A DNA stretch of 64,000 nt from Zestosphaera sp. (GCA_038843015.1 JAWBSH010000006.1:1-64000), one strand, 5' to 3'; shown: positions 21,777 through 37,703, counted from the stretch's first letter. The notes: generated by a model from the letters alone, not told the origin. Made by a program: numbers and translations.

Positions 21777-23426
21777 TTAAGTTAGTGGTATCATAGGTTG
21801 TGATATCATCTCTGCCACAGGTTGAAGCAAATTCACTACCAGCACATCTGATATAAGGCCGCCGAAGCCCCCCAACATTAAGAGGACTGCTAGGTAGTAG
21901 ATTGAGGAGTGTTTAAGTCCCCCATTAGTTATGGTTAGTGCGACGGTATTCATTGAGGTGATAGCTACTATTACTGACAAGTTTATCGAGTTTATGAAGG
22001 CTTCTGGGAGAGGATAGAAAGGCATTATGGTTTGTATCTGAGATAATACTGAGGCGAAGATCTTCATTAAAGAAGTGATGAAAGTTATTAATAACACGTT
22101 AGTCAAGTATATCGCGTAGGTTGAAGTCTCGAAAGTCTTATGGACCTGGTATCTACGTAATCTCAGCCTACTTATCATTAAGGAAACTTCAGAGAGATTA
22201 AGTCCTGTTCTAGAAGTGTCTCCGCCAAACCTTAAAGTGTCTTCAAGAATCCTTGACATGCGGTGAGCGAGTTCTGAGCGAGTGCTAAGTACGAATTCCT
22301 TCAAGCTCACAGAGAAACTTATGTTATTGCTTAGCAGGCTGTTGAGTCTCTGGAGAGACTTAGCGATTTTACCAAACAAGACACTCAGTAGAGGTTCCAG
22401 AGCTTTAAGAGGTGATGGAACTATAGAGAGATTACTGCCGTACATCCTTATAAAAACCGTTAAATCTTTATCTACCTCTTTCACGAACTTCTCTATCCTC
22501 ACGTACGCGTAGCCCGGAATGAAGAGAGCAGCCCCCACTAGAATTAACAACACATACAGACTTAAAGAAAGAAGACCTGTTAAACAGGAAACGATTAGTA
22601 TAGAGCATATAGCACTACTAAAAACCAGAATTAAGTTAGGGACCTTTAAAACTTCTTTTCTGAGAGCCCCACTCACGACGATGATATCTCTAGGCGAGAC
22701 CATCCATATAGGCACTAATATAGTGGCTGTCGCCGCAAAAACCCCTATCAACGAAATCAACACAATACTGAGATCACCGCCGAACATTATAGAGAGTACT
22801 AAGAGATTAGCAACAACGAATATAGCTGAGGTAAGTACTGCGGTGTAGGCACTTAAGAGCACGTTGACAGAGTCCATAATCCTCTGGTAAGAATACTCAT
22901 AAACACTCATATAATTTCTTAACTCAACCTCAATGAATCTCTCGGCACTCTCACCAACTCTTATAGAAGCCGCATATCTCTCCATAAAATCTCTCAAGTA
23001 CTTAAGCTTAGTTACCTCAGAACTAACAATATAGAGAGACTTAGCTAAATCATACCCGAAATTCTTAGAAAGATTAACTACCTTCCTCATATACTTAGCT
23101 ATCTTAGAATAACTTTCTGAATCAGCCACAGAAGAAATTACGTTGAGATTAGAGGTGCCGCCAGTAGACACTGAATACGCGTGAGCAAGCATAAATATAA
23201 AGTCTATGTCAGGTATAGTAACACTCAAATACTTAACTTTAACTATGCCGTAAGCGTAAGTAAAGAAAACAGAAACAAACGATACTAGCAGAATGATAAC
23301 CACGTTGAGAGGATAACCTAAGCCGGCATACTCAACTATTAGGTAAGCCAATATTAGAGAAGCAACAATTACAGAACTCTTAATTAAGTTCTTTAAAAGC
23401 ACCCTACTACTGAGCCCGAGAATCAA
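21777..23426 (-). CDS. arlJ: archaellum membrane platform protein ArlJ
   Basis: 549 residues with about nine hydrophobic segments and two large cytoplasmic regions containing GspF/TadC-type helices (AHAYSVSTGGTSNLNVISSV and LSEVSLMISRLRLRRYQVHK). ArlJ is the polytopic platform that works with ArlI. Position directly after arlI, overlapping it by four bases, fixes the assignment; by sequence alone a type IV pilus platform would also fit. Confidence 0.88.
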   Translation of the reverse strand: MILGLSSRVLLKNLIKSSVIVASLILAYLIVEYAGLGYPLNVVIILLVSFVSVFFTYAYGIVKVKYLSVTIPDIDFIFMLAHAYSVSTGGTSNLNVISSVADSESYSKIAKYMRKVVNLSKNFGYDLAKSLYIVSSEVTKLKYLRDFMERYAASIRVGESAERFIEVELRNYMSVYEYSYQRIMDSVNVLLSAYTAVLTSAIFVVANLLVLSIMFGGDLSIVLISLIGVFAATATILVPIWMVSPRDIIVVSGALRKEVLKVPNLILVFSSAICSILIVSCLTGLLSLSLYVLLILVGAALFIPGYAYVRIEKFVKEVDKDLTVFIRMYGSNLSIVPSPLKALEPLLSVLFGKIAKSLQRLNSLLSNNISFSVSLKEFVLSTRSELAHRMSRILEDTLRFGGDTSRTGLNLSEVSLMISRLRLRRYQVHKTFETSTYAIYLTNVLLITFITSLMKIFASVLSQIQTIMPFYPLPEAFINSINLSVIVAITSMNTVALTITNGGLKHSSIYYLAVLLMLGGFGGLISDVLVVNLLQPVAEMISQPMIPLT

Positions 23427-26143
23427 ATCAGAGCACCTTTTCTTAGAAGGTCAATAGCTTTCTCGATACCTACTTCCCTAGACTTAATAATAGCTCTCCA
23501 CACATCCCAATAATCAAAAACTTTCTTCTCAACTAATTCTTTGATAAATAAAGTTCTTAACTCGAGCTCGTCGTAAATCTCACTAACTCTGCTTCTAGGT
23601 ATGCCTCTCATCACAGCTATCTTCTCTTCTAGCAGGTAGCTAGTTCCCCTACCGCTAAAAACAAATTTGTCATTTACAGGATCCCACACAAACACGGGTA
23701 TGGCTATGATGCTGTCATTTTGCGGGTAGTAACCAATTACCTCGTAGAGCTTAACCATCTTCCTAGCTAAGAAGCCCTCCTTAGTATAGACAGCTGACTG
23801 AAACCAGGCGAAGTTGAGAGCACCTATGTTAGTTTTAGGAATATTTATTGGGTTGTTAGTTAGTCTCTGTGTTAACGTGTCGATGTCTGACGCGTGGAAC
23901 GTTGATAAGACTGGGTGACCGGTATTGTGGAGAGCTGTAGGAAGGAAACCACCTAGGAATAACTCAGACTCGGGGACCGATATGTCGTAAACAAATCCGT
24001 CATACCTAGATTTACTAATTCTGAGAACCTTTAGGAAGACTAAATCACTTCTTAGGAGTGTTTTGATCCTGCCTAAGAGAGTTGCGTCGCTTTCGTTAAG
24101 GAGGCTTAAGTCTTCTTTAAAGGATTCAATTACGTCTTCAACTACCTTCTTAGAAACGAATTCTCTTGAATTATTGCCTGACTTCCTCAAAAGTCTGTGC
24201 TCGTTAAGAGAGATACTTGAGTTTTGAATGACGTGTCGTAAAGCATCCAATATGCGCACCGGGACCTCTTCTCTTGGCAGACACACTACAACCTCGTAAG
24301 ATTGTTCATTGCCCTTTAAGACAGACATATAAGACTCAAAACCTAGCAACCTAGCAAACCAAGTCGCCGCGGTAGCAACCTTCTCATCACTTACGTAGTA
24401 AATAATTGATTCTTTTGAAGCTTTAAGTGATTCAAGCGTCTTAAAAGCTTGAGTGTTGAGAAGACTAGTAATCATCAACCATAAAGTCATCGGACGTGAG
24501 AAGAGTTCTCTTAAGTTAAGATTACCAAACGAGGCATTCTGCTTGCTACCTGCTCTATCAAAGTTCTTAACGAAAGAGACTAGGAAATCGCCTTCTTCAA
24601 GTTGTGAGACGAGCTTAGGTACAACCTTCATAGACTTCATGTCAAGAACGAAAACGCTGTGCGAGCCCGTGACTCTTAAACGTCCCCCACCCTCATAAAT
24701 TATCTCGTAAATCGTGTTAGTCTTATGTCTCAGGACGTAGTTTATGGGAGACCAAATAACCTTGCCTGACTTGCTGAGTGACAAGACCTCATAACCACTA
24801 ACATATCTCTTTCCTTCAGCGTCGTCACTAAAGAACTTATCCACGAATTCACCTATAGGAACTAGCTTTACTCTGCCAGTCCTCACTTCCTTAATCAAGA
24901 CTGGAGTCTCCCAGGCAACGCTTTGAATAGCTTGAAAAGCTATCGAGCCTTCAGCACCTCTAATCTCACCAACGATTATGTAATTTGGTCTCTGCCTAAG
25001 CGCAGACTTAAGTAAATCAAACATTGACACGCTACTTTCAGGTCTTCCTGTATCTCTAGTTAATTCCCTCACCCAGTTAGGGTGTGGGACCACTACTTCC
25101 GCGGTATCCTCTATGGAGACTATCTTAGCAGAAGGTCTTATGAAGGGTATCATAGCTGTAAGCGAGGTGGTTTTGCCGCTAGCTGTCTCACCACATATGA
25201 AGCCGCTCATACCTTCACTTAACAGCATCCACATGTAGGCTGCGATTCTCGCGTCGAAAGTCCCCCAGCTAATGAGTTGCGTTACGCTAGCCGGGGTCTT
25301 CAAAACTCGCCTAATAGTGAAGTTAGAGCCTCTTAAGCTAACGTCGTTGCCGAAAACTATGTTTATTCTAGAGCCGTCAGGTAGCGTAGCATCAACTATT
25401 GGTCTAGCACTAGATAAGGGCTTACCTATCTTCTCAGCTAGCGATATTAGAAACGCGTTCAACTCATTCTCGTTCAGGAACCCCACACTGCTCTCCATAC
25501 TGCCGAAGTACTTGTGCACGACGTATATGCTTCCCAACCCACTGCATGAGATGTCTTCTAAGTACGGGTCACGTAAGAAAGGCTCTATAACTCCTACACC
25601 TACCTTATCCCTCACCACGTGATAAGCTACTACACTCTTAAGCTCTTCGCGAGAGACTCCATCACTCAAGTAACGTAATAATTCTCCAGACCACTTACTA
25701 TAAACTTCGTCAATTAGTCTAAGCAACAAACACACTTTATCATCTGGAGACTTAGGCACGTACTCTTCTGGGATAAGCCTCGCTACCTTCTCCTCAACGA
25801 AGTAAAGGATTTTCTCTGGTGGTCTGGGAGGTTCTATGACTACATAGCTTGGGTAACCTCTACTCAATTTCCTGCTAGAGACGTGAATGAAAACGCCGCC
25901 ACCGACAGGATAAATAAGACTGTAGTTTTTCAGGAACTTATGCTCGCTACCAAGTTTATCAACTACTTTAATGTCATCGGACTCGGAAGTCTTTCTAGAT
26001 ATGTATTGTCTGAGATACCACGGCTCTACATCACTGTAGTAAGGAATATGGCAGGCAGTACTCTCAGTCACAGCCCTCTTTTTACGTAAACTCCTCGTTA
26101 TGTTGAAGGACTTAGCGAGTAGAGGTAGTTTTGAGGAAATCAT
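23423..26143 (-). CDS. arlI: archaellum motor/secretion ATPase ArlI, interrupted by an in-frame intein
   Basis: 906 codons, of which about 573 belong to the mature ATPase. Walker A is GETASGKTT (318-326), Walker B region VGEIRGAEG (391-399), His box TGHPVLSTFHASD (741-753). The GspE-type N-terminal region (IEPFLRDPYLEDISCSGLG) precedes it. ArlI powers both assembly and rotation of the archaellum. Between Q407 and T741 sits a 333-residue intein, listed separately; removal rejoins the family sequence FQAIQ-TGHPV exactly. The operon order arlG-arlF-arlH-arlI-arlJ is typical of crenarchaea. The start is an ATG 7 bases after the arlH stop. Confidence 0.93.
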   Translation of the reverse strand: MISSKLPLLAKSFNITRSLRKKRAVTESTACHIPYYSDVEPWYLRQYISRKTSESDDIKVVDKLGSEHKFLKNYSLIYPVGGGVFIHVSSRKLSRGYPSYVVIEPPRPPEKILYFVEEKVARLIPEEYVPKSPDDKVCLLLRLIDEVYSKWSGELLRYLSDGVSREELKSVVAYHVVRDKVGVGVIEPFLRDPYLEDISCSGLGSIYVVHKYFGSMESSVGFLNENELNAFLISLAEKIGKPLSSARPIVDATLPDGSRINIVFGNDVSLRGSNFTIRRVLKTPASVTQLISWGTFDARIAAYMWMLLSEGMSGFICGETASGKTTSLTAMIPFIRPSAKIVSIEDTAEVVVPHPNWVRELTRDTGRPESSVSMFDLLKSALRQRPNYIIVGEIRGAEGSIAFQAIQSVAWETPVLIKEVRTGRVKLVPIGEFVDKFFSDDAEGKRYVSGYEVLSLSKSGKVIWSPINYVLRHKTNTIYEIIYEGGGRLRVTGSHSVFVLDMKSMKVVPKLVSQLEEGDFLVSFVKNFDRAGSKQNASFGNLNLRELFSRPMTLWLMITSLLNTQAFKTLESLKASKESIIYYVSDEKVATAATWFARLLGFESYMSVLKGNEQSYEVVVCLPREEVPVRILDALRHVIQNSSISLNEHRLLRKSGNNSREFVSKKVVEDVIESFKEDLSLLNESDATLLGRIKTLLRSDLVFLKVLRISKSRYDGFVYDISVPESELFLGGFLPTALHNTGHPVLSTFHASDIDTLTQRLTNNPINIPKTNIGALNFAWFQSAVYTKEGFLARKMVKLYEVIGYYPQNDSIIAIPVFVWDPVNDKFVFSGRGTSYLLEEKIAVMRGIPRSRVSEIYDELELRTLFIKELVEKKVFDYWDVWRAIIKSREVGIEKAIDLLRKGALI
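23924..24922 (-). other. intein within ArlI (S408 to N740)
   Basis: 333 residues. Block A is SVAWETPVLIKEV (first residue Ser), block B RVTGSHSVFVLD (Thr-x-x-His), block F YDGFVYDISVPESELFLGG, block G ALHN followed by extein Thr. These are the residues for class 1 protein splicing (Ser1, penultimate His, terminal Asn, Thr+1). About 190 residues between splicing halves resemble a LAGLIDADG region (LWLMITSLLNTQAF, then AATWFARLLGFESYMS), but the catalytic acidic residues of the first motif are missing, so the homing endonuclease looks decayed. Confidence 0.9.
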
Positions 26144-26149
26144 GCCTCG

Positions 26150-26860
26150 TCACACTTTAGTAGCTTTAAGCGGAACTATCTTTATTCCTATAGCAGGATC
26201 AATATCGAAGATTATTGAGGAGTCAGCACCAGCATTAAATCCCTTCATCTTAATTAAATTAAGCGCCTTGTAATTCTTGCCGCCGAAATCTATGTTGCTT
26301 AAGCTAATATACACGTCGGAAACGCCTACTACCTTAGCTCTCATATCTTCTGGTAGGACCCTGGGATGTAGCGTGAGTATTAGAGTATTGCCTCTCCTAA
26401 CTAGGAGCCTTAAGTTCTTGAAAAAATTCAAGACTTTACCTAGCCAAACACCGTGAATTAAGTGAGTAAGACTATCAACTGCGATTAGGTCGTAATCAGT
26501 TGAGCGTTCCTCGAAGAAACTACTCAGTATGTCGAGAATCTTAGAGTTAGTTAGCCTACCCCACCTCAAGCCTCTTAAGTTAGCCGTGTAGACTCTCAGC
26601 GAGCCTTTTATGAAGTACCTACTCAGATCTAACCGTATCTCGGCCGCGTCACTGAGAAACTCTCTAGTAGTTCTCTCAGTAATTATCACCAAAGAACTCA
26701 AATTCTCTGATAAGGCACCATAAATAATCTGCTGAATCAACGCGGTCTTTCCAGAACCATTATCACCCTCAACCACTATGTAGGAAGGGTGGGGAAACCC
26801 CCCACCCAACCTTAAATCTAGAACTTCATTATGTGTCGGCACACACCTATGCATCATCAA
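26150..26860 (-). CDS. arlH: archaellum regulatory ATPase-like protein ArlH
   Basis: 236 residues, single RecA/KaiC-like domain. Walker A is EGDNGSGKTALIQQ (32-45) and Walker B YDLIAVDSLTHL (~128-139). ArlH binds ATP and docks onto ArlI-ArlJ, regulating the switch between assembly and rotation. The start overlaps arlF by 14 bases, and arlI begins 7 bases after its stop. Several ATG codons occur at the very N-terminus, so the exact start may move by two codons. Confidence 0.92.
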   Translation of the reverse strand: MMMHRCVPTHNEVLDLRLGGGFPHPSYIVVEGDNGSGKTALIQQIIYGALSENLSSLVIITERTTREFLSDAAEIRLDLSRYFIKGSLRVYTANLRGLRWGRLTNSKILDILSSFFEERSTDYDLIAVDSLTHLIHGVWLGKVLNFFKNLRLLVRRGNTLILTLHPRVLPEDMRAKVVGVSDVYISLSNIDFGGKNYKALNLIKMKGFNAGADSSIIFDIDPAIGIKIVPLKATKV

Positions 26861-27365
26861 TCACCCAACTACTCTTACTACCGCCAGGACTCACTACAAC
26901 TACAACAACAGGACCCTCACTAGATTTAGGAATCGGTAGTCTAAGCCTGGCTATGACTATTTCTCCGGGAATCAAGTAATTGTTTCCCTCTAGGCTCCTC
27001 ACAACTCTGCCAGAATGTATCGCGTAAATACTCCATCCAGGACCCTCATCATTTGAATACTTGAGTAAGTACGTGAACACGTGCTCGTTTAATCCCTTAT
27101 AACACACGATGAACTGAACGCTAGTTAGGGGCGCGACAGTGTCTTCTAATGCTGTTAACTTAACCTCTAGCGTAGTCTCATCTATTAAGTGGCCCTCAAT
27201 TATCTTCAGACGATCGTTCCTAACGAGAGACTCACTCATCCTCCTCGCCTCTCTAAAGACTATCAAAACGTAATTCAAGTTCATGATAACGCTCGCTACT
27301 ATCATCACAAGCATAAATACCGCGACAATGATTGAAGGAATCGTTACTTCGCTTGGCAGAATCAA
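26847..27365 (-). CDS. arlF: archaellum stator protein ArlF
   Basis: 172 residues. One N-terminal membrane helix (IPSIIVAVFMLVMIVASVIM, ~9-28) is followed by a beta-sandwich ectodomain (VVVVVSPGG near the C-terminus). ArlF anchors the motor to the S-layer in Sulfolobus. Identified mainly by order: directly between arlG and arlH. ArlF and ArlG are distant relatives, so the two names could be swapped. Confidence 0.78.
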   Translation of the reverse strand: MILPSEVTIPSIIVAVFMLVMIVASVIMNLNYVLIVFREARRMSESLVRNDRLKIIEGHLIDETTLEVKLTALEDTVAPLTSVQFIVCYKGLNEHVFTYLLKYSNDEGPGWSIYAIHSGRVVRSLEGNNYLIPGEIVIARLRLPIPKSSEGPVVVVVVSPGGSKSSWVIDDA

Positions 27366-27374
27366 CCACCTCTC

Positions 27375-27863
27375 TCATCCCGGGACTATCCCCTCCGTGT
27401 AAGCTCCTGAAGGCAGGACTAGCTTAACCTTAACGGGCTCAGAGGGCTTGTTCTGGAAGCTTAGCTTAATAATTATGGTTTCTCCAGAACTCCAAATACC
27501 GTCTCTCTCTAGCTCTAATATAAGAGACTTACTCGTCTCGCTCTCACTACTCAATACGAAGAAGTAGTTTTGACCGTCGTAAGTACTTAAATAAAGTTCT
27601 GTTCTGCCGTAAAGTTGACTCAACGGTATGTTTAGCGTACCGACATTCTTCACGTATATGACGTACATAGACTCGCTAGAGTTATAAAAACCTGTTATTA
27701 TCTTGACGTCTACCTGAAGTTCTTGCAACTTGGAATTCAGGATTGACGAGAGAGCGTTATTCACGTAGTTTATTCTAGTAACTATGAACGCGCCGAATAC
27801 CGTGGCTAGGATGACGCCGACGATCGTGAGCAACCCATGCACTATTACTGCGGAGGACCCCAT
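27375..27863 (-). CDS. arlG: archaellum stator protein ArlG
   Basis: 162 residues. N-terminal hydrophobic helix (VIVHGLLTIVGVILATVFGA) resembling an archaellin-like helix without a cleavage site, followed by a beta-rich ectodomain (MYVIYVKNVGTLNIPLSQL). In Sulfolobus ArlG forms a filament capped by ArlF. Nine bases precede arlF. Assigned by position and architecture. Confidence 0.78.
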   Translation of the reverse strand: MGSSAVIVHGLLTIVGVILATVFGAFIVTRINYVNNALSSILNSKLQELQVDVKIITGFYNSSESMYVIYVKNVGTLNIPLSQLYGRTELYLSTYDGQNYFFVLSSESETSKSLILELERDGIWSSGETIIIKLSFQNKPSEPVKVKLVLPSGAYTEGIVPG

Positions 27864-27907
27864 GCTCTGGCATCCCGCGACTCAAGCTCTATGATGCCTC
27901 GCTAAGA

Positions 27908-28624
27908 CTACCTACTAACTATCAGCTTCAGCACGTAAGTCATTAACTCGCTGTCTACTACCTCATCTCTAAAACCAAAGTTTTCAGCTATCACACTAAA
28001 CAGAGCTATTTGCTCCTCAACACTTAAACTCCTTTTCCTAGCCTCATCTACTAAGTCTATGACGGCCTTCAGCAGTTCTAGTTCCTCGTTTTTCACGAGC
28101 TTGAGCTTATTCATGAACGTTATGTAGTACATCAGCATATCTTTGTCAATTTTGTCCAGCATTAGATTAACTAGGCGCATGAACTTGACGAGATTCTTCA
28201 TATTCGCTTGCTTACCTTCAACACCGGCCTTCTTAACAGCTCCCCTAACCTCGAGAAGACTCGGAACAGACTTCTCTTTCTCAGTAGGGACGTTCTCCCT
28301 CACGTCATCCCCTTCAGCACTACCTTCAGTCTTGCCTGAAGCACTAATCACTTCTTCAGAATTGCTGGCAGTGACGGCTTGAGTCAGAGGATTACCTAGC
28401 TCTCCTAAAGTCTCTCTCAACTCTATAACTGCCTCTCTTAAAGCCTTGACTAGCTGAGATAACTCTTTCTTAGAATCTTCTTCTAACACCCTATTATCTA
28501 CTCCTGACTCAACCACGGGCCTCACCCCACCTCGACAAAACTTCTTAAGTATAGGCTTAACAAAGACCCTACACAGAAAGCAATCACATAACCACATGGA
28601 GTCAACACACCCAATCACGACCAC
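27908..28624 (-). CDS. archaellum cytoplasmic component, ArlX/ArlD-like (tentative)
   Basis: 238 residues. The middle has a coiled coil (KKELSQLVKALREAVIELRE, ~53-72), an acidic Ser/Glu-rich linker, and a C-terminal helical domain (NLVKFMRLVNLMLDKIDKDM ... MYYITFMNKLKLVKNEELEL) that resembles the C-terminal domain of euryarchaeal ArlD/E. It occupies the arlX slot between arlB and arlG, but lacks a clear transmembrane helix, which crenarchaeal ArlX has. The preceding small two-helix membrane gene overlaps it by 10 bases. The first ~30 residues, Cys-rich, may be outside the true start. Confidence 0.6.
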   Translation of the reverse strand: MVVIGCVDSMWLCDCFLCRVFVKPILKKFCRGGVRPVVESGVDNRVLEEDSKKELSQLVKALREAVIELRETLGELGNPLTQAVTASNSEEVISASGKTEGSAEGDDVRENVPTEKEKSVPSLLEVRGAVKKAGVEGKQANMKNLVKFMRLVNLMLDKIDKDMLMYYITFMNKLKLVKNEELELLKAVIDLVDEARKRSLSVEEQIALFSVIAENFGFRDEVVDSELMTYVLKLIVSR

Positions 28625-28860
28625 CCCTTGAGAAGAGACTTAACGCCTACGAGGAAAAAATGAGTAGATATGTAGAGAGGTATTAACAAGTAGAGAGAGT
28701 AGTAGAAGCCCTCGTTAAACAAAACCCAAATCAAGTAGACGATGAAAACAACTGAAGCAAGCGAAATGAGCGTGATTACGAGAACAGGATACGGGAGAGT
28801 ATTATGACGAGAAGACTTTCTACCAAAAAAGAAAGATTGAACTTCAAGGTATTGAACCAA
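28615..28860 (-). CDS. small membrane protein in the archaellum operon
   Basis: 81 residues with two hydrophobic helices (YPVLVITLISLASVVFIVYL and YYSLYLLIPLYISTHFFLVG). Not recognised. It lies 10 bases after the archaellin gene and overlaps the next gene by 10 bases, so it is translated as part of the operon. One reading is that it supplies the membrane anchor missing from the ArlX-like protein; this is inference from position. Confidence 0.6.
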   Translation of the reverse strand: MVQYLEVQSFFFGRKSSRHNTLPYPVLVITLISLASVVFIVYLIWVLFNEGFYYSLYLLIPLYISTHFFLVGVKSLLKGWS

Positions 28861-28870
28861 TTAAAACACC

Positions 28871-29455
28871 TCACCCTAGACTTACTGCCTGTCCTGAGGG
28901 CAGTATAGCTGGGACAACTCTCTCAACAGTCAGTGGAGCACCATCAGGAGTTCTAATCTCGACTCTTATGTTGTCGTATGGTGCTGGGTGTGAGCCCTCG
29001 GGGAACTTGATAATCAAGAGGACTTTTTCACCATAAGATAATACGGTGTCCTCAACCCTCTCTATGACGAATACCATGGTTGCATTTGGACTGCTACCGG
29101 CTTCAATCGTCGTGTTAAGACTACTTAGGCTGAAGTCACTTCCGCTCATCACCTTAGAGTATATGTTTTCATAAGCTAAGCTTGTGGTGCCAGTTACGAA
29201 GAGTGCTACAGTTAGCTTCTCTGGGTTTAAGTCTATGTTGTCTTTTCCTGGCGCTAGTCTTAAAGGTATGCTGATTAGTTCTACACCGTTCCCGTTGCTG
29301 TTAACTAGCGCGGTTATTGAGCCGTCTACTTCTAGTACTGAGGAGGCATGTGCTAGTCCTGTGTTTATTGTTTCTCTTGCTCTCTGGGTTGTGAACATGC
29401 CCATGTTTAGTACTACAAAGGCTAGTGCTGCCGCGACTACTACGAAGGCTATCAT
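28871..29455 (-). CDS. arlB: archaellin ArlB (first standard start codon lies inside the conserved N-terminal helix)
   Basis: 194 residues from the ATG at 29455, but the reading frame continues upstream with the class III signal peptide: RKTKKG then ITGIEAAIV runs directly into MIAFVVVAAALAFVVLNMG. Cleavage after Gly (codon 29485-29483) gives a mature start at 29482. The frame is closed by TGA at 29130-plus-398 (29528-29530), and no ATG, GTG or TTG exists between. Candidates are ACG at 29121-plus-400 (29519-29521), six bases after a GAGGTGA ribosome site, or a +1 shift from GTG at 29531. The ectodomain is a beta-rich archaellin fold. First gene of the archaellum operon. Confidence 0.88.
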   Translation of the reverse strand: MIAFVVVAAALAFVVLNMGMFTTQRARETINTGLAHASSVLEVDGSITALVNSNGNGVELISIPLRLAPGKDNIDLNPEKLTVALFVTGTTSLAYENIYSKVMSGSDFSLSSLNTTIEAGSSPNATMVFVIERVEDTVLSYGEKVLLIIKFPEGSHPAPYDNIRVEIRTPDGAPLTVERVVPAILPSGQAVSLG

Positions 29456-30120: not shown

Positions 30121-30972
30121 ATGTATTCTACTTACGTGAGTGACAGAGAGCTAATGCATAAGAAGATAGAGCTCATAAAAGAACTAGATACTATGCTAGA
30201 CTTTGCTAAGTCTACGGCTCAGTTAGAGATCATATTATACTTGAGTAGCTCTAGAAAAAATCTTACAGCCAGAGAAATCGCGCAAGCTCTCAACATGAAG
30301 CTCAAGACTGTTTATGACGCACTCAACAAGCTGACTAGTAAAGAACTCGTTGAGAGAACAAATGATGGCGGGTATAAACTCACTCCGTTAGGTAGTGAGT
30401 TTATTGAGAAGTTGCTGAAGATCATAACAGATAGTGAGTTTAGGGGACTCCAGCAGACTAGTCTAAGCACGAACAACTTCAACGCTATGGCGAGGAACTT
30501 AGTTACTTTCAAATACGTTCACGACGTCATGTTAATTCTAGCACTCACAGATTCTGATAAGGTAGATGTTAGGAAGCTCGCAAAGATCCTTAAGACTTCT
30601 GAGCAGACACTCTCTGAACACTTAGAACTCTTCTGTTGTAAGAAAGAAGGGTGTCTCGGACTACTAAAGAAGTCTGCAGGGAGCGACACCACATACTATT
30701 CACTTACCGAGTTAGGCAAGCAAGAAGTAAGTAAATTCGTGAGTTATAGGAGGTTAAAGAATAATAAGCTACTGAGAGCCTTAATGAAGGTGACGAGAAG
30801 CTTAACACCTAAGCAAGCAGTATTGAGAATAGCTATAATGAGCTACGCACTCTCTATAACCGGCATGTACACGATACTGCTTAACACATACATCGGAATA
30901 ATAATATTCTCAACGATACTAGCTTACTTGCTAGCCGTAATGACTGCAGCACTATATTACGACTTATCATAA
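30121..30972 (+). CDS. membrane-anchored winged-helix regulator, ArnR-like
   Basis: 283 residues. A first winged helix (~30-95, NLTAREIAQALNMKLKTVYD as recognition helix), a second one (~138-205, VDVRKLAKILKTSEQTLSEH), and two C-terminal membrane helices (AVLRIAIMSYALSITGMYTI, GIIIFSTILAYLLAVMTAAL). In Sulfolobus, ArnR and ArnR1 are DNA-binding proteins with two C-terminal membrane helices that activate arlB; the architecture and the location next to the archaellum operon make this a good functional analogue, although the tandem winged helices differ in detail. No sensor domain is visible outside the membrane. Confidence 0.75.
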   Translation: MYSTYVSDRELMHKKIELIKELDTMLDFAKSTAQLEIILYLSSSRKNLTAREIAQALNMKLKTVYDALNKLTSKELVERTNDGGYKLTPLGSEFIEKLLKIITDSEFRGLQQTSLSTNNFNAMARNLVTFKYVHDVMLILALTDSDKVDVRKLAKILKTSEQTLSEHLELFCCKKEGCLGLLKKSAGSDTTYYSLTELGKQEVSKFVSYRRLKNNKLLRALMKVTRSLTPKQAVLRIAIMSYALSITGMYTILLNTYIGIIIFSTILAYLLAVMTAALYYDLS

Positions 30973-31439: not shown

Positions 31440-32087
31440 TTGACAATGTCTGCTTATAATGAGGATAGAGAGAGTTTAGTATCTTATGAGATAATCTACA
31501 GGATCCTCAATCATATGGAAAGTAAGGGTAGGTCTTTGAAGACTAGGATTCTCTATGCTTCAAACCTAAACTCAAAGTCTCTAGAGAAGTACTTAGATTT
31601 TCTATTAAAAAAGAACTTAATATCTGAGGTTTGCATTAATGGGAAGAAGTTTTACGTACTCACAGCTAGAGGGAGAGAATTCCTTTATAAGTTGAGGAAA
31701 ATTAGGGAAGATATAAATAATCATCGCCCTAAGAGGCTCTCAGACTTAGTTAAGAATATGTATTTAGAAAAACGAGTGACTGTAAACACTTATGAATTGA
31801 ATAATAAGAGATTACACGTAGTAATAGTTGATAGTGATTCAACAACTAAGGAGACTCTGTCTGAGTTAATACTTAGTTACGTTAACGCGAGAATAGATGG
31901 TGATGAAGTGCTAGGCGTTATTCCCTCAAGACTATATGATAGAGTAATAGAGATACTTAACGATTTAGGGAGAGCTGCTTCGTTAAGACTCTACACATAT
32001 AATGAACGCGAAGATTTAGAAGACTTAACTCTTAGGATAGTTAGCTTATTAAGAAGTTTAGACACTCAGTATAGGATAATTATTTAA
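31440..32087 (+). CDS. winged-helix transcriptional regulator (HTH_45-like)
   Basis: 215 residues. The N-terminal ~90 form a winged helix of the archaeal type with LKTRILYASNLNSKSLEKYL and YVLTARGREFLYKLRKI, as in PF14947-like repressors. Residues ~105-215 form an alpha/beta domain (RLHVVIVDSDSTTKETLSEL ... DEVLGVIPSRLYDRVIEIL) that could be a ligand-binding or dimerisation module; no family recognised. TTG at 31440 or ATG at 31446 can start it. It converges, with a 23-base gap, on the DUF5305/signal-peptidase/TasA-like operon, which makes it a candidate regulator of that locus as well as of itself. Confidence 0.8.
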   Translation: MTMSAYNEDRESLVSYEIIYRILNHMESKGRSLKTRILYASNLNSKSLEKYLDFLLKKNLISEVCINGKKFYVLTARGREFLYKLRKIREDINNHRPKRLSDLVKNMYLEKRVTVNTYELNNKRLHVVIVDSDSTTKETLSELILSYVNARIDGDEVLGVIPSRLYDRVIEILNDLGRAASLRLYTYNEREDLEDLTLRIVSLLRSLDTQYRIII

Positions 32088-32110: not shown

Positions 32111-33160
32111 TCATTTAGTTGATTTATCAATTTCCTCGTACAGGTAAGTCACGTCTCCATCTACTACAGCGAATTTAGTCTTACTACTTAGTCTTACTAT
32201 AGGTTTTCTCCTCATAGTAGCTACTTTAACTAAGTCTGTAAAATTCTTAACACGAATTACTACAGCGACGTGCCTGATTTGCTCTAGTTCCCCAGTAATT
32301 ATTAGGTCTCTATACTTGCTCTCAAGTAACGCCGGTATTCTCTTACTTGAGCTACTTCGGGTAATCACTATTATCGCGATGGCTAACCCGCCCGCAGAAG
32401 TTATTGAAGTGATTACAGTTAAGACCCTATACGTTATGATGTCTACGCTAACCCACAATAGAGCTACTTCAGCAACTCTAGTTTGTTTATAGCTGTCTAC
32501 ATACTTAGACTCTGGACTACTGACGCGGACGTCAATGAAAGGCTTTCCAGTATCGTAGTATACTTCTAACTTAGAAGTTGACGTTAGTGTGTAAGACTTA
32601 CTAACATTCACTAATTTGACGTCTGTACGAGCACGAAAAACTATGACTATCGTGTATGCTCTACTACTACCTACCTCTCTCTCGACCCTACTTATGTAAT
32701 CTCTCAGGTAAGTGAAGTTCAGGTAGAGACTCCTAGTCCTCAGTAATTCTCTCACATCACCTGAATCAACTAATATCTCTTTAAACCAGATCGGTGAAGA
32801 TATGTTAACGTATACCTCGTACGTACCCCCAACATTCTGTAACTCCTTACTAGAACTTAACTTAAGCTCATGCGTGATATTGAGGCCCTCAAAGAATTTA
32901 GTATATATTGTCTCACCCGGCTTAAGAACTGTTCTGTTGTCGTAAATGATTGAACTCTTAACGAAGACTACGTAATTCAAGTCTATCTTTTGAGCAACTG
33001 TAGCTATGACTATCTCCTCAACAATCTTGTCAGGAATGCTATACGAGACAACTAAACCGTTCAAGGAGAGTAATAAGGTGATGCTTAAGATAGTGATTAA
33101 GAAATATGTGAAGGCCCTACTCTGCTTCTCGATAAGAGATTTAATCTTCAACAAATACAA
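32111..33160 (-). CDS. DUF5305-family membrane protein of the filament locus
   Basis: 349 residues. One N-terminal membrane helix (FTYFLITILSITLLLSLNGL, ~18-37), a ~200-residue extracellular beta-rich region with many N-glycosylation sites, a second helix (ITSAGGLAIAIIVITR, ~255-270) and a cytoplasmic C-terminal domain ending in a DUF5305-like strand pattern (KTKFAVVDGDVTYLYEE). DUF5305 proteins often accompany archaeal signal peptidases and TasA-like secreted proteins. The start overlaps the signal-peptidase gene by 20 bases. It may anchor or cap the filament; that is inference. Confidence 0.75.
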   Translation of the reverse strand: MYLLKIKSLIEKQSRAFTYFLITILSITLLLSLNGLVVSYSIPDKIVEEIVIATVAQKIDLNYVVFVKSSIIYDNRTVLKPGETIYTKFFEGLNITHELKLSSSKELQNVGGTYEVYVNISSPIWFKEILVDSGDVRELLRTRSLYLNFTYLRDYISRVEREVGSSRAYTIVIVFRARTDVKLVNVSKSYTLTSTSKLEVYYDTGKPFIDVRVSSPESKYVDSYKQTRVAEVALLWVSVDIITYRVLTVITSITSAGGLAIAIIVITRSSSSKRIPALLESKYRDLIITGELEQIRHVAVVIRVKNFTDLVKVATMRRKPIVRLSSKTKFAVVDGDVTYLYEEIDKSTK

Positions 33161-34370
33161 ACCACCTAAGCGAATTTCTTAATAAGCCAGCAGTCATGAG
33201 TAACGTCACCGTAATTATCAAGTTCTGATAATTTATTAATATTTGCATTAAGTATATCCATAAATACCCTACTAAAGGTATCTTAAAGACGTACTTCCCC
33301 AGTAATGCGCTCTGCGATACTCTGAATGGATCTGGATTCTCGTTAGCGTCTCCCTTAGTTAAGTACTTTATTCCTGAGCTAGTGTTAAGCACTCTTACAA
33401 CCCTATGTATGATTATGTCCCTGCTCAGGTAGAACGCTATCACGTCACCCTCTACCACGTCCGACGGACTGACTCTCGTGTTAATCACTGCCACGTCACC
33501 CACGTTTAATGCGGGACTCATACTACCACTAACAACTACGAGAGCCCTATAACCGATTATCATAGATACCAAGACTGCAAGCAGTAAAGAAAAGAACACG
33601 AAACTCAGTAACTTAGAAGAGAGTGTGATCTTCTTTGTCTCGCTCTCTCCCGAGTACGTTATCTCAAGAATAACGAAAAATACGAACACCTGAACAACGT
33701 TTACGACGGCTAACATACCGCTTGATACGTTCGGGAGCAAGGGCATTAAGTAGATATATAGTCTCGTGAACATAGAGTAAATAAGGCTATTCTTTATACC
33801 TCCTAAAATAAACAAGTAACCAACTAGCAAGTTACTGAGGAAGAGAGGCACAAAGCTCCTCATGATGAAATTAACAGAGCTAGAGTAACTAGACGTAATC
33901 ATATTCAAGTACCTGGTATAAGTGAAACTCAAGAAAGTAAAAAAGAGTGAAGTTAATACAAGTGATGTCCTAACTCTCCTTGAATTCCCTAGAAGATAAC
34001 CTCTGAGAAACTCTACTCCAAGAACTCTCGGAACCTCCCTAACTAAGTTGAGTACAACAAGAGATTGAGTAAGTGTTAACGGGTTTCGTCCAAAACCATT
34101 TAACAATCCCAAAACAACATCACTCGCTATACTCACAGCTAAAAACAGCAAAACAATTGGCGTGAGACTCTCTCCAAATAAGGTCTTAATACTTAAAACC
34201 TCGTTAAAGAGAAGCCCTACCAAAAGTAAACCAACTACTGATGGTATCACGTAGTAGAGTAACCCACCCCAAGGCAGGAAAAGAGGATAAAAATAAGCAA
34301 ATAAGATAAGAGCCAGAGAAAAAACTAGTAAAAAATACCGATTAAACATCAATTGACACCATAGATTCAT
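33141..34370 (-). CDS. dedicated signal peptidase I with a long multi-pass N-terminal domain
   Basis: 409 residues. The S26 catalytic domain occupies ~275-370: Ser283 in SGSMSPALNVGD, His322 in IIIHRVVRV and Asp341 in TKGDANENPDP, the Ser/His(/Asp) set of archaeal and SipW-type signal peptidases. Residues 1-275 hold about seven membrane helices; the segment EFLRGYLLG (~120-128) faintly recalls CPBP intramembrane proteases, but key residues are not complete. Ordinary archaeal signal peptidase I (see 37703) lacks this region. Linked to the TasA-like genes just upstream, it probably processes them, as SipW does for TasA in Bacillus. Confidence 0.87.
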   Translation of the reverse strand: MNLWCQLMFNRYFLLVFSLALILFAYFYPLFLPWGGLLYYVIPSVVGLLLVGLLFNEVLSIKTLFGESLTPIVLLFLAVSIASDVVLGLLNGFGRNPLTLTQSLVVLNLVREVPRVLGVEFLRGYLLGNSRRVRTSLVLTSLFFTFLSFTYTRYLNMITSSYSSSVNFIMRSFVPLFLSNLLVGYLFILGGIKNSLIYSMFTRLYIYLMPLLPNVSSGMLAVVNVVQVFVFFVILEITYSGESETKKITLSSKLLSFVFFSLLLAVLVSMIIGYRALVVVSGSMSPALNVGDVAVINTRVSPSDVVEGDVIAFYLSRDIIIHRVVRVLNTSSGIKYLTKGDANENPDPFRVSQSALLGKYVFKIPLVGYLWIYLMQILINYQNLIITVTLLMTAGLLRNSLRWFVFVED

Positions 34371-34440
34371 TACTATAATTATATAGTTTTCAAATAAAAA
34401 ACTTTTACTCTTTCATCACGCCTTAACTAATGCTTACTTG

Positions 34441-35130
34441 CTAACTAACAGGAGTAGTAGGTGTTGGATAGCTCTCGGAATACTCGTTCCACTGGATCGC
34501 TTCGAAACTTATGTATATAGTTAGTGAAGCACTTTCAGGGGCTGGCTGAAGCACTGTTAAGTCAAAGCTTATATCTGCTGACTGGCAAGGATGTAACTGT
34601 ACTCCGAAGTTATCACCCCACCAGACAGTAACGTCAGGCTCTCCATCATCGTTAAGATCTAGCTCAACTCCTTGTTGTAGTTCTTGCTCGTTTAACTCGT
34701 AGTATGCTACACCATTTATCACTACTCTCCAGATTTTAAGAGGTATCGTGCCGTCATTATGTACTTTAAACGCTATATGTGTGTAATACCAGGGATAAAC
34801 GTTGTTTAAGGTTACTTCCATAGTGTCAAGATCTCCATCCCCGTCAGTATCTAGTAGAGTTACGTTAGTGCATCCTACATCCTTATCTAGCTGCAGGGCT
34901 CCAGGCATTGGATAATAAGATGCGTTCCAGTCATTGCCTTTGAAAACTCCGTAACCTGGCTCCAGACCGCACGCGTCTAAGTATATCACTGAACCTGGAA
35001 CGAATTCCCAGTCGAGTTCGCCTGTGTTGACTGTTGTGTTTATCATTAGTGTCTCAGACCACATAGCTAACGCTACTAGAGCCACGCCGATTAAAGCCAC
35101 AATCCCTAACTGCTTAATAATTCCTTTCAT
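34441..35130 (-). CDS. secreted TasA/AbpA-like filament subunit, paralogue 1 (calcium-motif type)
   Basis: 229 residues. Signal peptide of ~22 residues ending VALVALA, then the invariant segment MWSETLMINTTVNTGE and a beta-rich domain. Two Asp-rich loops, DTDGDGDLDT and DLNDDGEPDV, look like calcium-binding loops; two or three cysteines (DACGL, DVGCT, HPCQS) could form a disulfide. The C-terminus (SYPTPTTPVS) is Thr/Pro-rich. The start is ATG at 35130, seven bases after AGGTG. The N-terminal sequence and locus composition match TasA/camelysin and the archaeal bundling pilus subunit AbpA. Homology is inferred from signal-peptide type and context, not overall identity. Confidence 0.78.
   Translation of the reverse strand: MKGIIKQLGIVALIGVALVALAMWSETLMINTTVNTGELDWEFVPGSVIYLDACGLEPGYGVFKGNDWNASYYPMPGALQLDKDVGCTNVTLLDTDGDGDLDTMEVTLNNVYPWYYTHIAFKVHNDGTIPLKIWRVVINGVAYYELNEQELQQGVELDLNDDGEPDVTVWWGDNFGVQLHPCQSADISFDLTVLQPAPESASLTIYISFEAIQWNEYSESYPTPTTPVS
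35017..35074 (-). repeat. 58-bp exact repeat, copy A (within paralogue 1)
   Basis: Identical at every base to 35587-35644, including all synonymous positions. It encodes LAMWSETLMINTTVNTGE across the signal-peptide cleavage site. Flanking DNA of the two genes is much more diverged. Confidence 0.95.
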
Positions 35131-35151
35131 TATCAGCACCTTTAGCTATCG

Positions 35152-35706
35152 TTAGTCACTCATTACTTCATTCCACTGAGCGAATACTAAAGTCACTTCG
35201 AATCCGTACGTAGAGTTTTCTTCAGCTTCTTGAAGAACCTCAATATGTAGAATATATTCACCATAACCTTCAGGGTCTATTTGAGTATCTTCTGGTATTA
35301 GTAAATTCACGTATAGTGGCGTGTCCTCCGGAATATCAATCATATAATTATAGAGCTTAACTGGAATAGTACCTACGTTGTCTACGTATAGATACACGTC
35401 AACCGCGTATCCAGGATAAGCATTATCAATCGTTACGAGTAATTTAATAGCGTCTCCTTCCTCATCTACTACTTCTACCTCAACGTTGCATGAAGCCACG
35501 TCTTTGCCCTCCTCGTTACTATAGCCTTCTCCCTGAGGGTCTGCCCCCTCGTCACTACACCACCATTCCGACCACTTAACATCTACTTCGCCTGTGTTGA
35601 CTGTTGTGTTTATCATTAGTGTCTCAGACCACATAGCTAACGCTGTCCCTAAAGCAAGCACTAATATTGTTAAGGCACCTATAGTTAGTAACTTACGTGT
35701 TTCCAT
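35152..35706 (-). CDS. secreted TasA/AbpA-like filament subunit, paralogue 2
   Basis: 184 residues. A 24-residue signal peptide (KLLTIGALTILVLALGTALA) is followed by MWSETLMINTTVNTGEVDVKW and a beta-sandwich pattern (VTIDNAYPGYAVDVYLYVDN, YGEYILHIEVLQEA, YGFEVTLVFAQWNE). The C-terminal FAQWNE echoes FEAIQWNE of paralogue 1, so the two share the fold from end to end. Acidic, without the calcium-like loops. First gene of the operon; a TATA box (ATATATTAAA, plus 35741-35750) and AGGT ribosome site precede the ATG. The product is predicted to be exported and polymerise on the cell surface. Confidence 0.8.
   Translation of the reverse strand: METRKLLTIGALTILVLALGTALAMWSETLMINTTVNTGEVDVKWSEWWCSDEGADPQGEGYSNEEGKDVASCNVEVEVVDEEGDAIKLLVTIDNAYPGYAVDVYLYVDNVGTIPVKLYNYMIDIPEDTPLYVNLLIPEDTQIDPEGYGEYILHIEVLQEAEENSTYGFEVTLVFAQWNEVMSD
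35587..35644 (-). repeat. 58-bp exact repeat, copy B (within paralogue 2)
   Basis: Same 58 bases as 35017-35074, starting at the equivalent codon of the second subunit gene; distance between copies 570 bases, both minus strand. Confidence 0.95.
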
Positions 35707-35869: not shown

Positions 35870-35908
35870 GTCTTGAAGCATAGGGAAGAAAATAAGTGGT
35901 GAGGTCCT

Positions 35909-37321
35909 ATTTCAGAAAATCCTAAGTTTGTTTTAGGTGTTGAAAGTCTAGACATTCTCTTAGGAAAACTCTTAGAGTATGGAGCTTTAATACTTATCGC
36001 CGGAAATCCTGGCGCTGGCAAGACTCTACTCGCTTCAACTATCTGCTACTCTAACGCTGTTAGGGGCGTTCCATGTCTTTACATCTCTCTACAAGAAACT
36101 AAGGAGGTCTTTTTCAGGCATATGAAAGACTTTAACATGGACTTCAGTGAGTTAGAGTCTAAAGACTTATTCAAGTATTACAGAGTACCGATAATAATAG
36201 ATCCTGAGTTAATTAATACGCTTATTAATGAATTAAGCACTTACTCAAGCAAGTATAAAGTGTTAGTAGTAGATAGCTTCACACCCTTAAGCAAGTTGAT
36301 AGAGAAGAATTCTGAAACCAGGGCACTACTCCAGAACTTCTTCTATAACCTCGCGAAACTCGAGAAATCTCTAGTTGTTTTAGTAGCTGAGATCCCTATA
36401 GGTAAAGAAACCTTAGACTTAGGTGATGTGGAGTTCGTGTCAGACGTAGTGCTACTTCTGAAGCAATACATGGAGAGAGGCCTGATAACAAGGTTTATGG
36501 AGGTAAGGAAAGCCAGGGAAGCACCAGTAAGTATCGGTGAGGTGCCCTTCAAAGTAGTTGAGGGATTAGGCATACGTTCTTTTCTCCCACCACAACTTGA
36601 GGAACCCCCACCAGTAGTGCGTGGAGTAAGTTACGAGTATCCTTGTAGAGAACTTAACGAGATGTTAGGGCCTGTAAACGCTGGGTCAACAATGTACGTA
36701 GTAATGCCTGCTGACGCTCGCTCAACCGAAGCTTACATACCTGGATTAATAAGTCTGTCTTTAGCACTAAAACACAAGCTCAAGACTCTGATAATAGATT
36801 ATGCTAAACCAACTTACACATTCATAGACTCACTAGCAGATTACGCGGCAAAAAGACTGCTGAAAAGCCGCGAAATAATCGAGAAATTAACTAAAGAGTT
36901 AGTTAGCGTCAAGTACGTCAACCCAGCCACGATGAGTCTAGAAGAACTATATACGTACGAGATAGAGTTAGTGAGACTATACCAGCCTAAAATCCTCATC
37001 CTTAATAGGATAGACATACCTTCACGCATCCATGGCGCTGAGAAACCTGGAAAATACTTCACACACTTGTGGAACGAGCTACTCTGGTTCAGGAAGCACG
37101 GAGTAACAGTGATCAGGACTAGCACCTATATTGGTAGGGAAGCATACTTACAGAACGCGTCTATATCCGAGACAGTAGTACGTCTCTACAAAACTAGAAA
37201 AGAACCAAACCTAAAGATATACTTGTGGACTGAAAGAAAAGACCCTAAAATAATAGACTTTCAAGTCTTGAGTAAGTGTCTCGACGAGTTTATCTATAGT
37301 GTATGCAGCGAGAAGCAATAA
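35909..37321 (+). CDS. KaiC/ArlH-like ATPase with degenerate second domain; probable ATT start
   Basis: 470 residues if translation begins at ATT 35909. Domain 1: KFVLGVESLDILLG, Walker A AGNPGAGKT (31-39) and Walker B VLVVDSFTPL (~118-127). Domain 2 (~190-470) keeps the fold (TMYVVMPADARSTEAYIPG, LKTLIIDYAKP) but its P-loop lacks the GxxGxGKT residues. The first standard start codon, ATG 36122, would delete Walker A. The frame opens after TGA at 35900-35902; ATT at 35909 follows GGTGA by six bases. It is divergent from the TasA-like operon and may couple filament production to a regulatory ATPase; that link is inference. Confidence 0.82.
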   Translation: MSENPKFVLGVESLDILLGKLLEYGALILIAGNPGAGKTLLASTICYSNAVRGVPCLYISLQETKEVFFRHMKDFNMDFSELESKDLFKYYRVPIIIDPELINTLINELSTYSSKYKVLVVDSFTPLSKLIEKNSETRALLQNFFYNLAKLEKSLVVLVAEIPIGKETLDLGDVEFVSDVVLLLKQYMERGLITRFMEVRKAREAPVSIGEVPFKVVEGLGIRSFLPPQLEEPPPVVRGVSYEYPCRELNEMLGPVNAGSTMYVVMPADARSTEAYIPGLISLSLALKHKLKTLIIDYAKPTYTFIDSLADYAAKRLLKSREIIEKLTKELVSVKYVNPATMSLEELYTYEIELVRLYQPKILILNRIDIPSRIHGAEKPGKYFTHLWNELLWFRKHGVTVIRTSTYIGREAYLQNASISETVVRLYKTRKEPNLKIYLWTERKDPKIIDFQVLSKCLDEFIYSVCSEKQ

Positions 37322-37400: not shown

Positions 37401-37703
37401 GTGTTTAAAGTGGTTAAGTGTCCCAACTGCGGAGCTGACGTAAGTCCTGAGAGAACTTGGCAAGTCATAAGTCCTTTGCCAGACGCTTACGGGAGGATAA
37501 CCATAACTGTCTTAGGAAGTTTTAAGTGCTCATCATGTGGTCATAGCTGGAAAGGTAAGGTGTCAGCTATTAAGGTAGGTCCTGAGGGCGAGGTATCTTT
37601 TGGCGAAGGAAAGAAAACTAAGAAGAGAGATGAGGTTCCTCGCGAGAAAAGAGAAGGTAAGGTAATAGAAGTAGATATCTCCGACATACTGGAGGAAGAA
37701 TAA
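37401..37703 (+). CDS. zinc-ribbon protein, crenarchaeal conserved
   Basis: 100 residues. CPNCG (8-12) and CSSCG (~43-47) form a Cys4 zinc ribbon with a long intervening strand pair; the C-terminal half is Lys/Glu-rich and ends DISDILEEE. It probably binds nucleic acid or a protein partner; no precise function is recognised. A TATA tract (AAATATATAAATAT, ~37367-37380) lies 26 bases before the GTG, so the transcript is probably leaderless. The stop overlaps the start of the signal peptidase gene by one base. Confidence 0.7.
   Translation: MFKVVKCPNCGADVSPERTWQVISPLPDAYGRITITVLGSFKCSSCGHSWKGKVSAIKVGPEGEVSFGEGKKTKKRDEVPREKREGKVIEVDISDILEEE

Follow-up and report, generated by a model that had tools for sequence, protein, structure and literature searches.

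A minus-strand cluster of four genes, at positions 32111–35706, lies within a 64,000-nucleotide (nt) stretch of the genome of a heat-loving archaeon, Zestosphaera sp. (1.55 Mb, 20 contigs; GCA_038843015.1 JAWBSH010000006.1:1-64000), the whole stretch being here called the window. The cluster encodes two paralogous secreted proteins, here named subunits A and B, a signal peptidase I and a membrane protein of family DUF5305. A preliminary description, made from the DNA alone, had proposed that these genes build a surface filament resembling those of TasA and AbpA and equipped with its own signal peptidase. All four open reading frames (ORFs) were confirmed, with the peptidase and DUF5305 families above their curated cut-offs. 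A and B are separated by 12 nt and B and the peptidase gene by 70 nt, and the peptidase and DUF5305 genes overlap by 20 nt.

For A and B, profiles made from 21 and 20 loci, respectively, were compared with every sequence in the Protein Data Bank (PDB). The top matches for both were AbpX (9sj2; E values of 1.4e-14 for A and 1.6e-9 for B) and the entry 'Archaeal bundling protein X' (9rhp; 2.6e-11 and 2.1e-6). According to a preprint, the ABPx fibre is that of Pyrodictium abyssi and is donor-strand exchanged (PMC11952670). A and B are also homologous to each other overall (profile–profile E 4.8e-45). The AbpX precursor, found in genome G065 (100% identical), continues after TYA with QWSETLSLSATISTGSLDVD (also given as QWSETLSLSATISTG), and it aligns with A and B, in which ALA is followed by MWSETLMINTTVNTGEVDV and MWSETLMINTTVNTGELDW, respectively. 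The solved 9sj2 chain starts at the post-signal segment (WSETL...TG) that matches the mature N-terminus of A and B. In 9rhp a WSETL...STG segment lies near residues 159–174, the C-terminus of the entry, and we read it as a donor strand probably supplied in cis. Homology to AbpX extends across donor strand and core, and the mature chain of A and B would begin, judging from the alignment and a predicted cleavage site, with the donor strand directly after the signal peptide. By sequence, A and B are members of an AbpX-type group, outside the curated TasA/camelysin family.

The earlier view of A and B as TasA/AbpA-like fibre subunits is thus borne out in part. They are homologous to a solved fibre protein, with the N-terminus aligned to its donor strand; AbpA of Pyrobaculum was not among the sequence-search matches of A and B, and TasA was reached only through intermediates, namely AbpX, weaker hmmsearch matches and a mixed profile (A7, which includes locus L181) that matches TasA alone. 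TasA/camelysin models match 2 of 21 relatives of A and 3 of 20 relatives of B at E about 0.04. The SipW-type signal peptide model TIGR04088 gives 12.2 bits for A of the window, below its cut-off of 19, and is found at E<=1 in 10 of 21 relatives (best 0.0023). Compared directly with the TasA-like subunits of loci L181 and L183, the profile of A or B did no better than against a decoy. In an AlphaFold2 model of A (mean predicted local distance difference test score 83), residues 28–42 lack secondary structure and the eight strands come after them, from residue 43, as would be expected of a subunit without its partner, which we regard as weak evidence. Subunit B carries two acidic loops (DTDGDGD and DLNDDGEPD); two DxDxDG-like loops are kept in relatives of B, some of which give weak FG-GAP-like matches. 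These loops look calcium-binding, and a calcium-dependent fibre is possible.

That A and B share a mature N-terminus had been described; the likeness proved stronger than claimed, as the shared segment (ALAMWSETLMINTTVNTGE) lies in coding DNA that is identical over 58 nt in the two genes of the window. The comparison of the two strands drew on 24 loci, with a single locus for each genus where possible. Over the first 16 mature residues identity was 0.698 within genomes and 0.493 between genomes (permutation p 2e-5, genomes being treated as independent, whereas kinship lowers their effective number), with a large excess at mature residues 10 and 11. There was no matching at residues 17–20 (0.219 within, 0.205 between) or over the next 20 residues (0.108 and 0.103). 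The same pattern emerged from a previous set of 20 genomes, the effect being much weaker in the aligned core (0.326 and 0.306). Since A and B have the same donor strand, each could feed the groove of either, and the within-genome match points to a mixed or coupled fibre, most likely a single mixed or two-segment one.

The third gene encodes a signal peptidase I of archaeal type, as had been proposed (TIGR02228, 91.1 bits, cut-off 51.85). Its score against the SipW equivalog NF046067 (74.7 bits, 6.6e-21) is below the cut-off of 190. Across 16 relatives Ser283, His322, Asp341 and Asp347 do not vary, in keeping with the Ser/His/Asp catalytic residues noted earlier. Alignment-averaged hydropathy, on which the assignment of membrane segments relies, has seven peaks before the helix of the catalytic domain, near residues 25, 46, 81, 113, 142, 177 and 228, which agrees with the seven extra membrane helices of the preliminary description. 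This extension had no Pfam match in 16 members. It contains a conserved GxExxR motif (E120, R123) resembling CPBP motif 1; the idea that it is a degenerate CPBP/Rce1 protease (PF02517; GxExxRG compared with EExxRG) was dropped at an hhalign E value of 0.034 and a probability of 0.8%. A peptidase 68% identical to that of the window lies on a contig labelled uncultured Sulfolobales archaeon. In a genome of the same genus (G003, L061:5217-6450) the long peptidase appears as two ORFs, through a frameshift or an assembly error. The second, general signal peptidase reported at 37703 is indeed present (TIGR02228, 83.1 bits), and two loci of the general short peptidase (L083, L084) contained none of the partners A, B and DUF5305.

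Linkage of similar subunits with this peptidase in other genomes was looked for and is present: throughout the order the genes for A, B, the peptidase and DUF5305 remain linked, and at loci of relatives selected by the peptidase the other three are nearly always found. Among 214 genomes of the order, 59 have the peptidase extension, 66 have DUF5305 and 49 have both (Fisher p 8e-24, the genomes not being independent). In 47 of these 49 the pair lies on one strand within 3.5 kb and in the same order, and DUF5305 is downstream of the peptidase, usually overlapping it, in every linked case (50 pairs). The AbpX gene is itself directly followed by a long-type peptidase (A4 profile, 6e-48). Gene linkage gives good support to a peptidase belonging to this locus, of which A and B would be the substrates.

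A separate search for DUF5305 alone covered 300 genomes of the phylum, and 27 resulting regions were inspected, the majority from outside the order. Wherever a full-length DUF5305 gene had at least 1.9 kb on each side, a signal peptidase lay within 6 kb (14 of 14 loci, two of which, L194 and L196, were recognised solely by the general peptidase). No signal peptidase was found near the truncated DUF5305 genes of L185, L200 and L201. At L181 and L183 the subunits adjacent to DUF5305 and peptidase score 48.9 and 44.6 bits against camelysin/TasA PF12389 (cut-off 22.5), and the L181 subunit matches the TasA fibre 8aur at 2.8e-4. Elsewhere in the phylum, too, DUF5305 is accompanied by signal peptidases and by subunits of the SipW type. 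At L194 and L196, in genomes of family f11 (2–3 Mb), DUF5305 accompanies a different peptidase without the long extension, and a 142-residue protein with a hydrophobic N-terminus lies between them. Firmicutes loci from a first genome scan, which had the look of SipW-linked pili, matched in the catalytic domain only and were not used; a regular-expression search of them for TasA-like proteins found none.

Further proteins bear the strand. At six loci (L062, L076, L080, L110, L114 and L115) a third protein, longer than A and B, shares their N-terminal strand; the window locus has none. In L110 and L114 it carries an SdrD_B-like domain, which would suit a tip adhesin, and in L110 it replaces B. 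An unlinked 199-residue paralogue in the same Zestosphaera genome (contig C15, L088:5892-6491) has the donor-strand motif ALWSETLKVNVSV and no TG motif. It belongs to a divergent, conserved minor class with the strand and without TG, found near the regulator in L077, L118 and L197; the profile of this class matches A at 4.8e-12.

Taken together, we consider it probable that the locus specifies a surface fibre related to fibres known from biofilms and assembled, like those of TasA and AbpX, by donor-strand complementation, with a dedicated peptidase, A and B likely mixed in it, and DUF5305 beside the peptidase. From the homology to AbpX, gene order, linkage, fusion (below) and matched strands we infer filament formation, cleavage, co-assembly and the role of DUF5305. 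A and B would be exported by Sec, and the membrane-embedded peptidase would cut after ALA, freeing the N-terminal strand MWSETLMINTTVNTG, which would slot into the next subunit's open groove; with the same donor strand in A and B, either groove could be fed. DUF5305 may sit beside the peptidase at the outer face of the membrane, receiving cut subunits and starting or feeding polymerisation.

Several observations weigh against this proposal. A fibre in Zestosphaera sp. is here predicted from genes alone, and the TasA/camelysin models (PF12389, NF046066) do not match A or B of the window. A structural search against TasA and AbpA, the check that the preliminary description had suggested and here also a probe for the TasA jelly-roll fold, gave no confident match: Foldseek with AlphaFold monomer models of A and B gave no PDB match at E<=0.001, and the TasA fibre 8aur ranked fourth for B (E 0.018, template modelling (TM) score 0.27) and outside the top 50 for A. 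An uncomplemented monomer is a poor query, and we count this outcome on neither side. In ten genomes with the peptidase extension no DUF5305 was detected, so that DUF5305 is not strictly needed; 17 have DUF5305 without the extension. At the AbpX locus there is a single subunit gene, and no DUF5305 was seen beside the peptidase.

The reliance on genes and the Foldseek result would also suit secreted surface proteins that do not polymerise, a reading that the homology to AbpX over donor strand and core makes very improbable. It is possible, if clearly less probable than a shared fibre, that A and B form separate fibres, or that one of them is a minor starter, and that their N-termini match because one peptidase recognises both. 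The matched stretch does follow the cleavage site directly, the signal-peptide region also matches within genomes, to an intermediate degree (0.342 within, 0.237 between, in the 20-genome set), and AbpX manages with one subunit gene. Yet signal peptidases generally read few residues past the cut, and the match of A and B reaches 16 residues past the predicted one, the excess being large at residues 10 and 11. The shared strand could also stem from gene conversion between the neighbouring paralogues and be a neutral by-product of it, and exact nucleotide matches of 58 nt in the window and 107 nt in L076 suggest that conversion has occurred in some genomes. In the window A may have been its source, because B of the sister genomes (G001, G003) reads MWSES and A reads MWSET; in G001 the two strands have diverged (12 of 20 residues identical, 3 of 10 shared codons). 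Nevertheless, matching persists without the converted-looking genomes (0.628 within, 0.518 between; p 5e-5) and stops at the end of the strand. In most genomes the residues match although the codons differ. This points to selection acting on the protein and leaves a purely neutral origin unlikely.

For DUF5305 the preliminary description had favoured a role in anchoring the fibre or capping its end. The protein of the window is a clear family member (PF17231, 50.3 bits, cut-off 29), and its two hydrophobic segments and large middle part would suit a membrane-held cap. We found no positive evidence for that role and consider it rather unlikely: in L193 and L203 peptidase and DUF5305 are one protein, the peptidase first (residues about 10–150) and DUF5305 second (about 185–515), the gene always follows that of the peptidase where the two are linked, and profile comparison detected no homology between DUF5305 and the subunits. 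By sequence DUF5305 is not simply another fibre subunit. From the two genomes with the fusion we suggest that it is a peptidase partner whose role is coupled to processing, not a passive anchor or cap. Much more tentatively, DUF5305 might be the missing assembly factor, a membrane-held receiver tied to the peptidase, so that cleavage and strand transfer form one coupled step; such a step could conceivably be a cleavage-driven counterpart of the chaperone–usher pathway.

Table 1. Features of the fibre locus and its convergent neighbour (positions in the window; aa, amino acids).
Feature	Position	Strand	Description
Subunit A	35152-35706	-	184 aa; signal peptide 1-24 (predicted cleavage between ALA and MW); putative donor-strand segment MWSETLMINTTVNTGE (25-40); then a beta domain of eight strands, ending FAQWNEV
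Copy in A of the 58-nt A/B-identical stretch	35587-35644	-	A coding nt 63-120; spans donor-strand codons
Subunit B	34441-35139	-	232 aa from GTG start; paralogue of A; donor-strand segment as in A
B copy of the 58-nt A/B-identical stretch	35017-35074	-	nt 48-105 counted from 35121; probable recent gene conversion
Signal peptidase I	33141-34370	-	409 aa; archaeal/SipW type, Ser-His-Asp; about 7 N-terminal hydrophobic segments before catalytic domain
Peptidase N-terminal membrane extension	33636-34370	-	aa 1-245; family in 59/214 genomes of the order; without Pfam match
DUF5305 protein	32111-33160	-	349 aa; hydrophobic segment near N-terminus, then about 200 residues presumed extracellular, second hydrophobic segment at about 245, presumed cytoplasmic tail
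Winged-helix gene, HTH_45	31440-32087	+	convergent; neighbour kept at many related loci; candidate regulator

Subunit B has an alternative in-frame ATG at 35130. A T-run between B and the peptidase gene (TTTTTT, 34396–34401) was considered as a terminator controlling dosage; runs of 5–7 T occur at most loci, though not all, in DNA of high A+T content, and no such function is claimed. An archaellum cluster adjoins on the minus strand (23423–29455), with an intein-interrupted ArlI-type ATPase (NF058587, 596.5 bits; intein model TIGR01445 above its cut-off) and ArlH-like (26150–26860), ArlG/F-like (27375–27863) and archaellin-like (28871–29455) genes. Between the archaellum and fibre clusters lies an ArnR-like regulator (30121–30972, plus strand; 96 bits against NF041016, under its cut-off), the C-terminal part of which contains hydrophobic segments. 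On the other side is a KaiC/ArlH-like ATPase (35900–37321, plus strand). Its ORF starts at 36122, yet the in-frame sequence before that point encodes the Walker A region (GALILIAGNPGAGKT) and has no ATG, GTG or TTG after the preceding stop; either the start codon is unusual or the 5′ end of the gene is broken. The version in a sister genome has 455 residues and includes the Walker A region.

The closest known system is the AbpX fibre of Pyrodictium abyssi (9sj2, 9rhp), which shares a homologous subunit, the post-signal donor-strand segment and a gene beside a long multi-helix signal peptidase; unlike that locus, the one described here has two paralogues with a matched strand, and DUF5305. In TasA the donor strand is the first mature residues, 28–38, and the nucleator TapA shares the N-terminal sequence (PMC9674648). 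The TasA–SipW–TapA operon of Bacillus subtilis likewise combines a fibre subunit having an N-terminal donor strand, a dedicated archaeal-type peptidase and an accessory protein. By contrast, the window subunits do not reach the cut-offs of the TasA/camelysin models, the peptidase is extended by about seven hydrophobic segments and DUF5305 stands in place of TapA. In Bacillus cereus, TasA and CalY form heterofilaments, both processed by one SipW (PMC13082335). That system, in another domain of life, resembles ours in its two paralogous subunits, whereas CapP (DUF4047 motif, repeats) differs from DUF5305. The AbpA bundling pili of Pyrobaculum calidifontis, as cited in PMC9674648 and PMC9715654, are an archaeal donor-strand fibre related to TasA; unlike AbpX, AbpA was not found by our sequence searches. 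The threads of Sulfolobus acidocaldarius (Saci_0406) show donor-strand complementation by an N-terminal tail and carry a signal peptidase I signal (PMC9715654). Saci_0406 was not among our sequence matches, and a dedicated peptidase is not reported for threads.

A two-subunit system as such is therefore known from B. cereus (PMC13082335), and a literature search for DUF5305 found no paper. Within the literature searched, the link and fusion of DUF5305 to the peptidase, the conserved polytopic extension and the matching of strands between partners are new, although papers on AbpA or AbpX may have noticed some of this gene arrangement earlier. The matching of A and B offers a simple way to read from sequence which subunits belong to one fibre. 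Loci of this type would provide a compact, widely conserved and testable answer to how archaeal and Gram-positive donor-strand fibres are assembled without a chaperone and usher.

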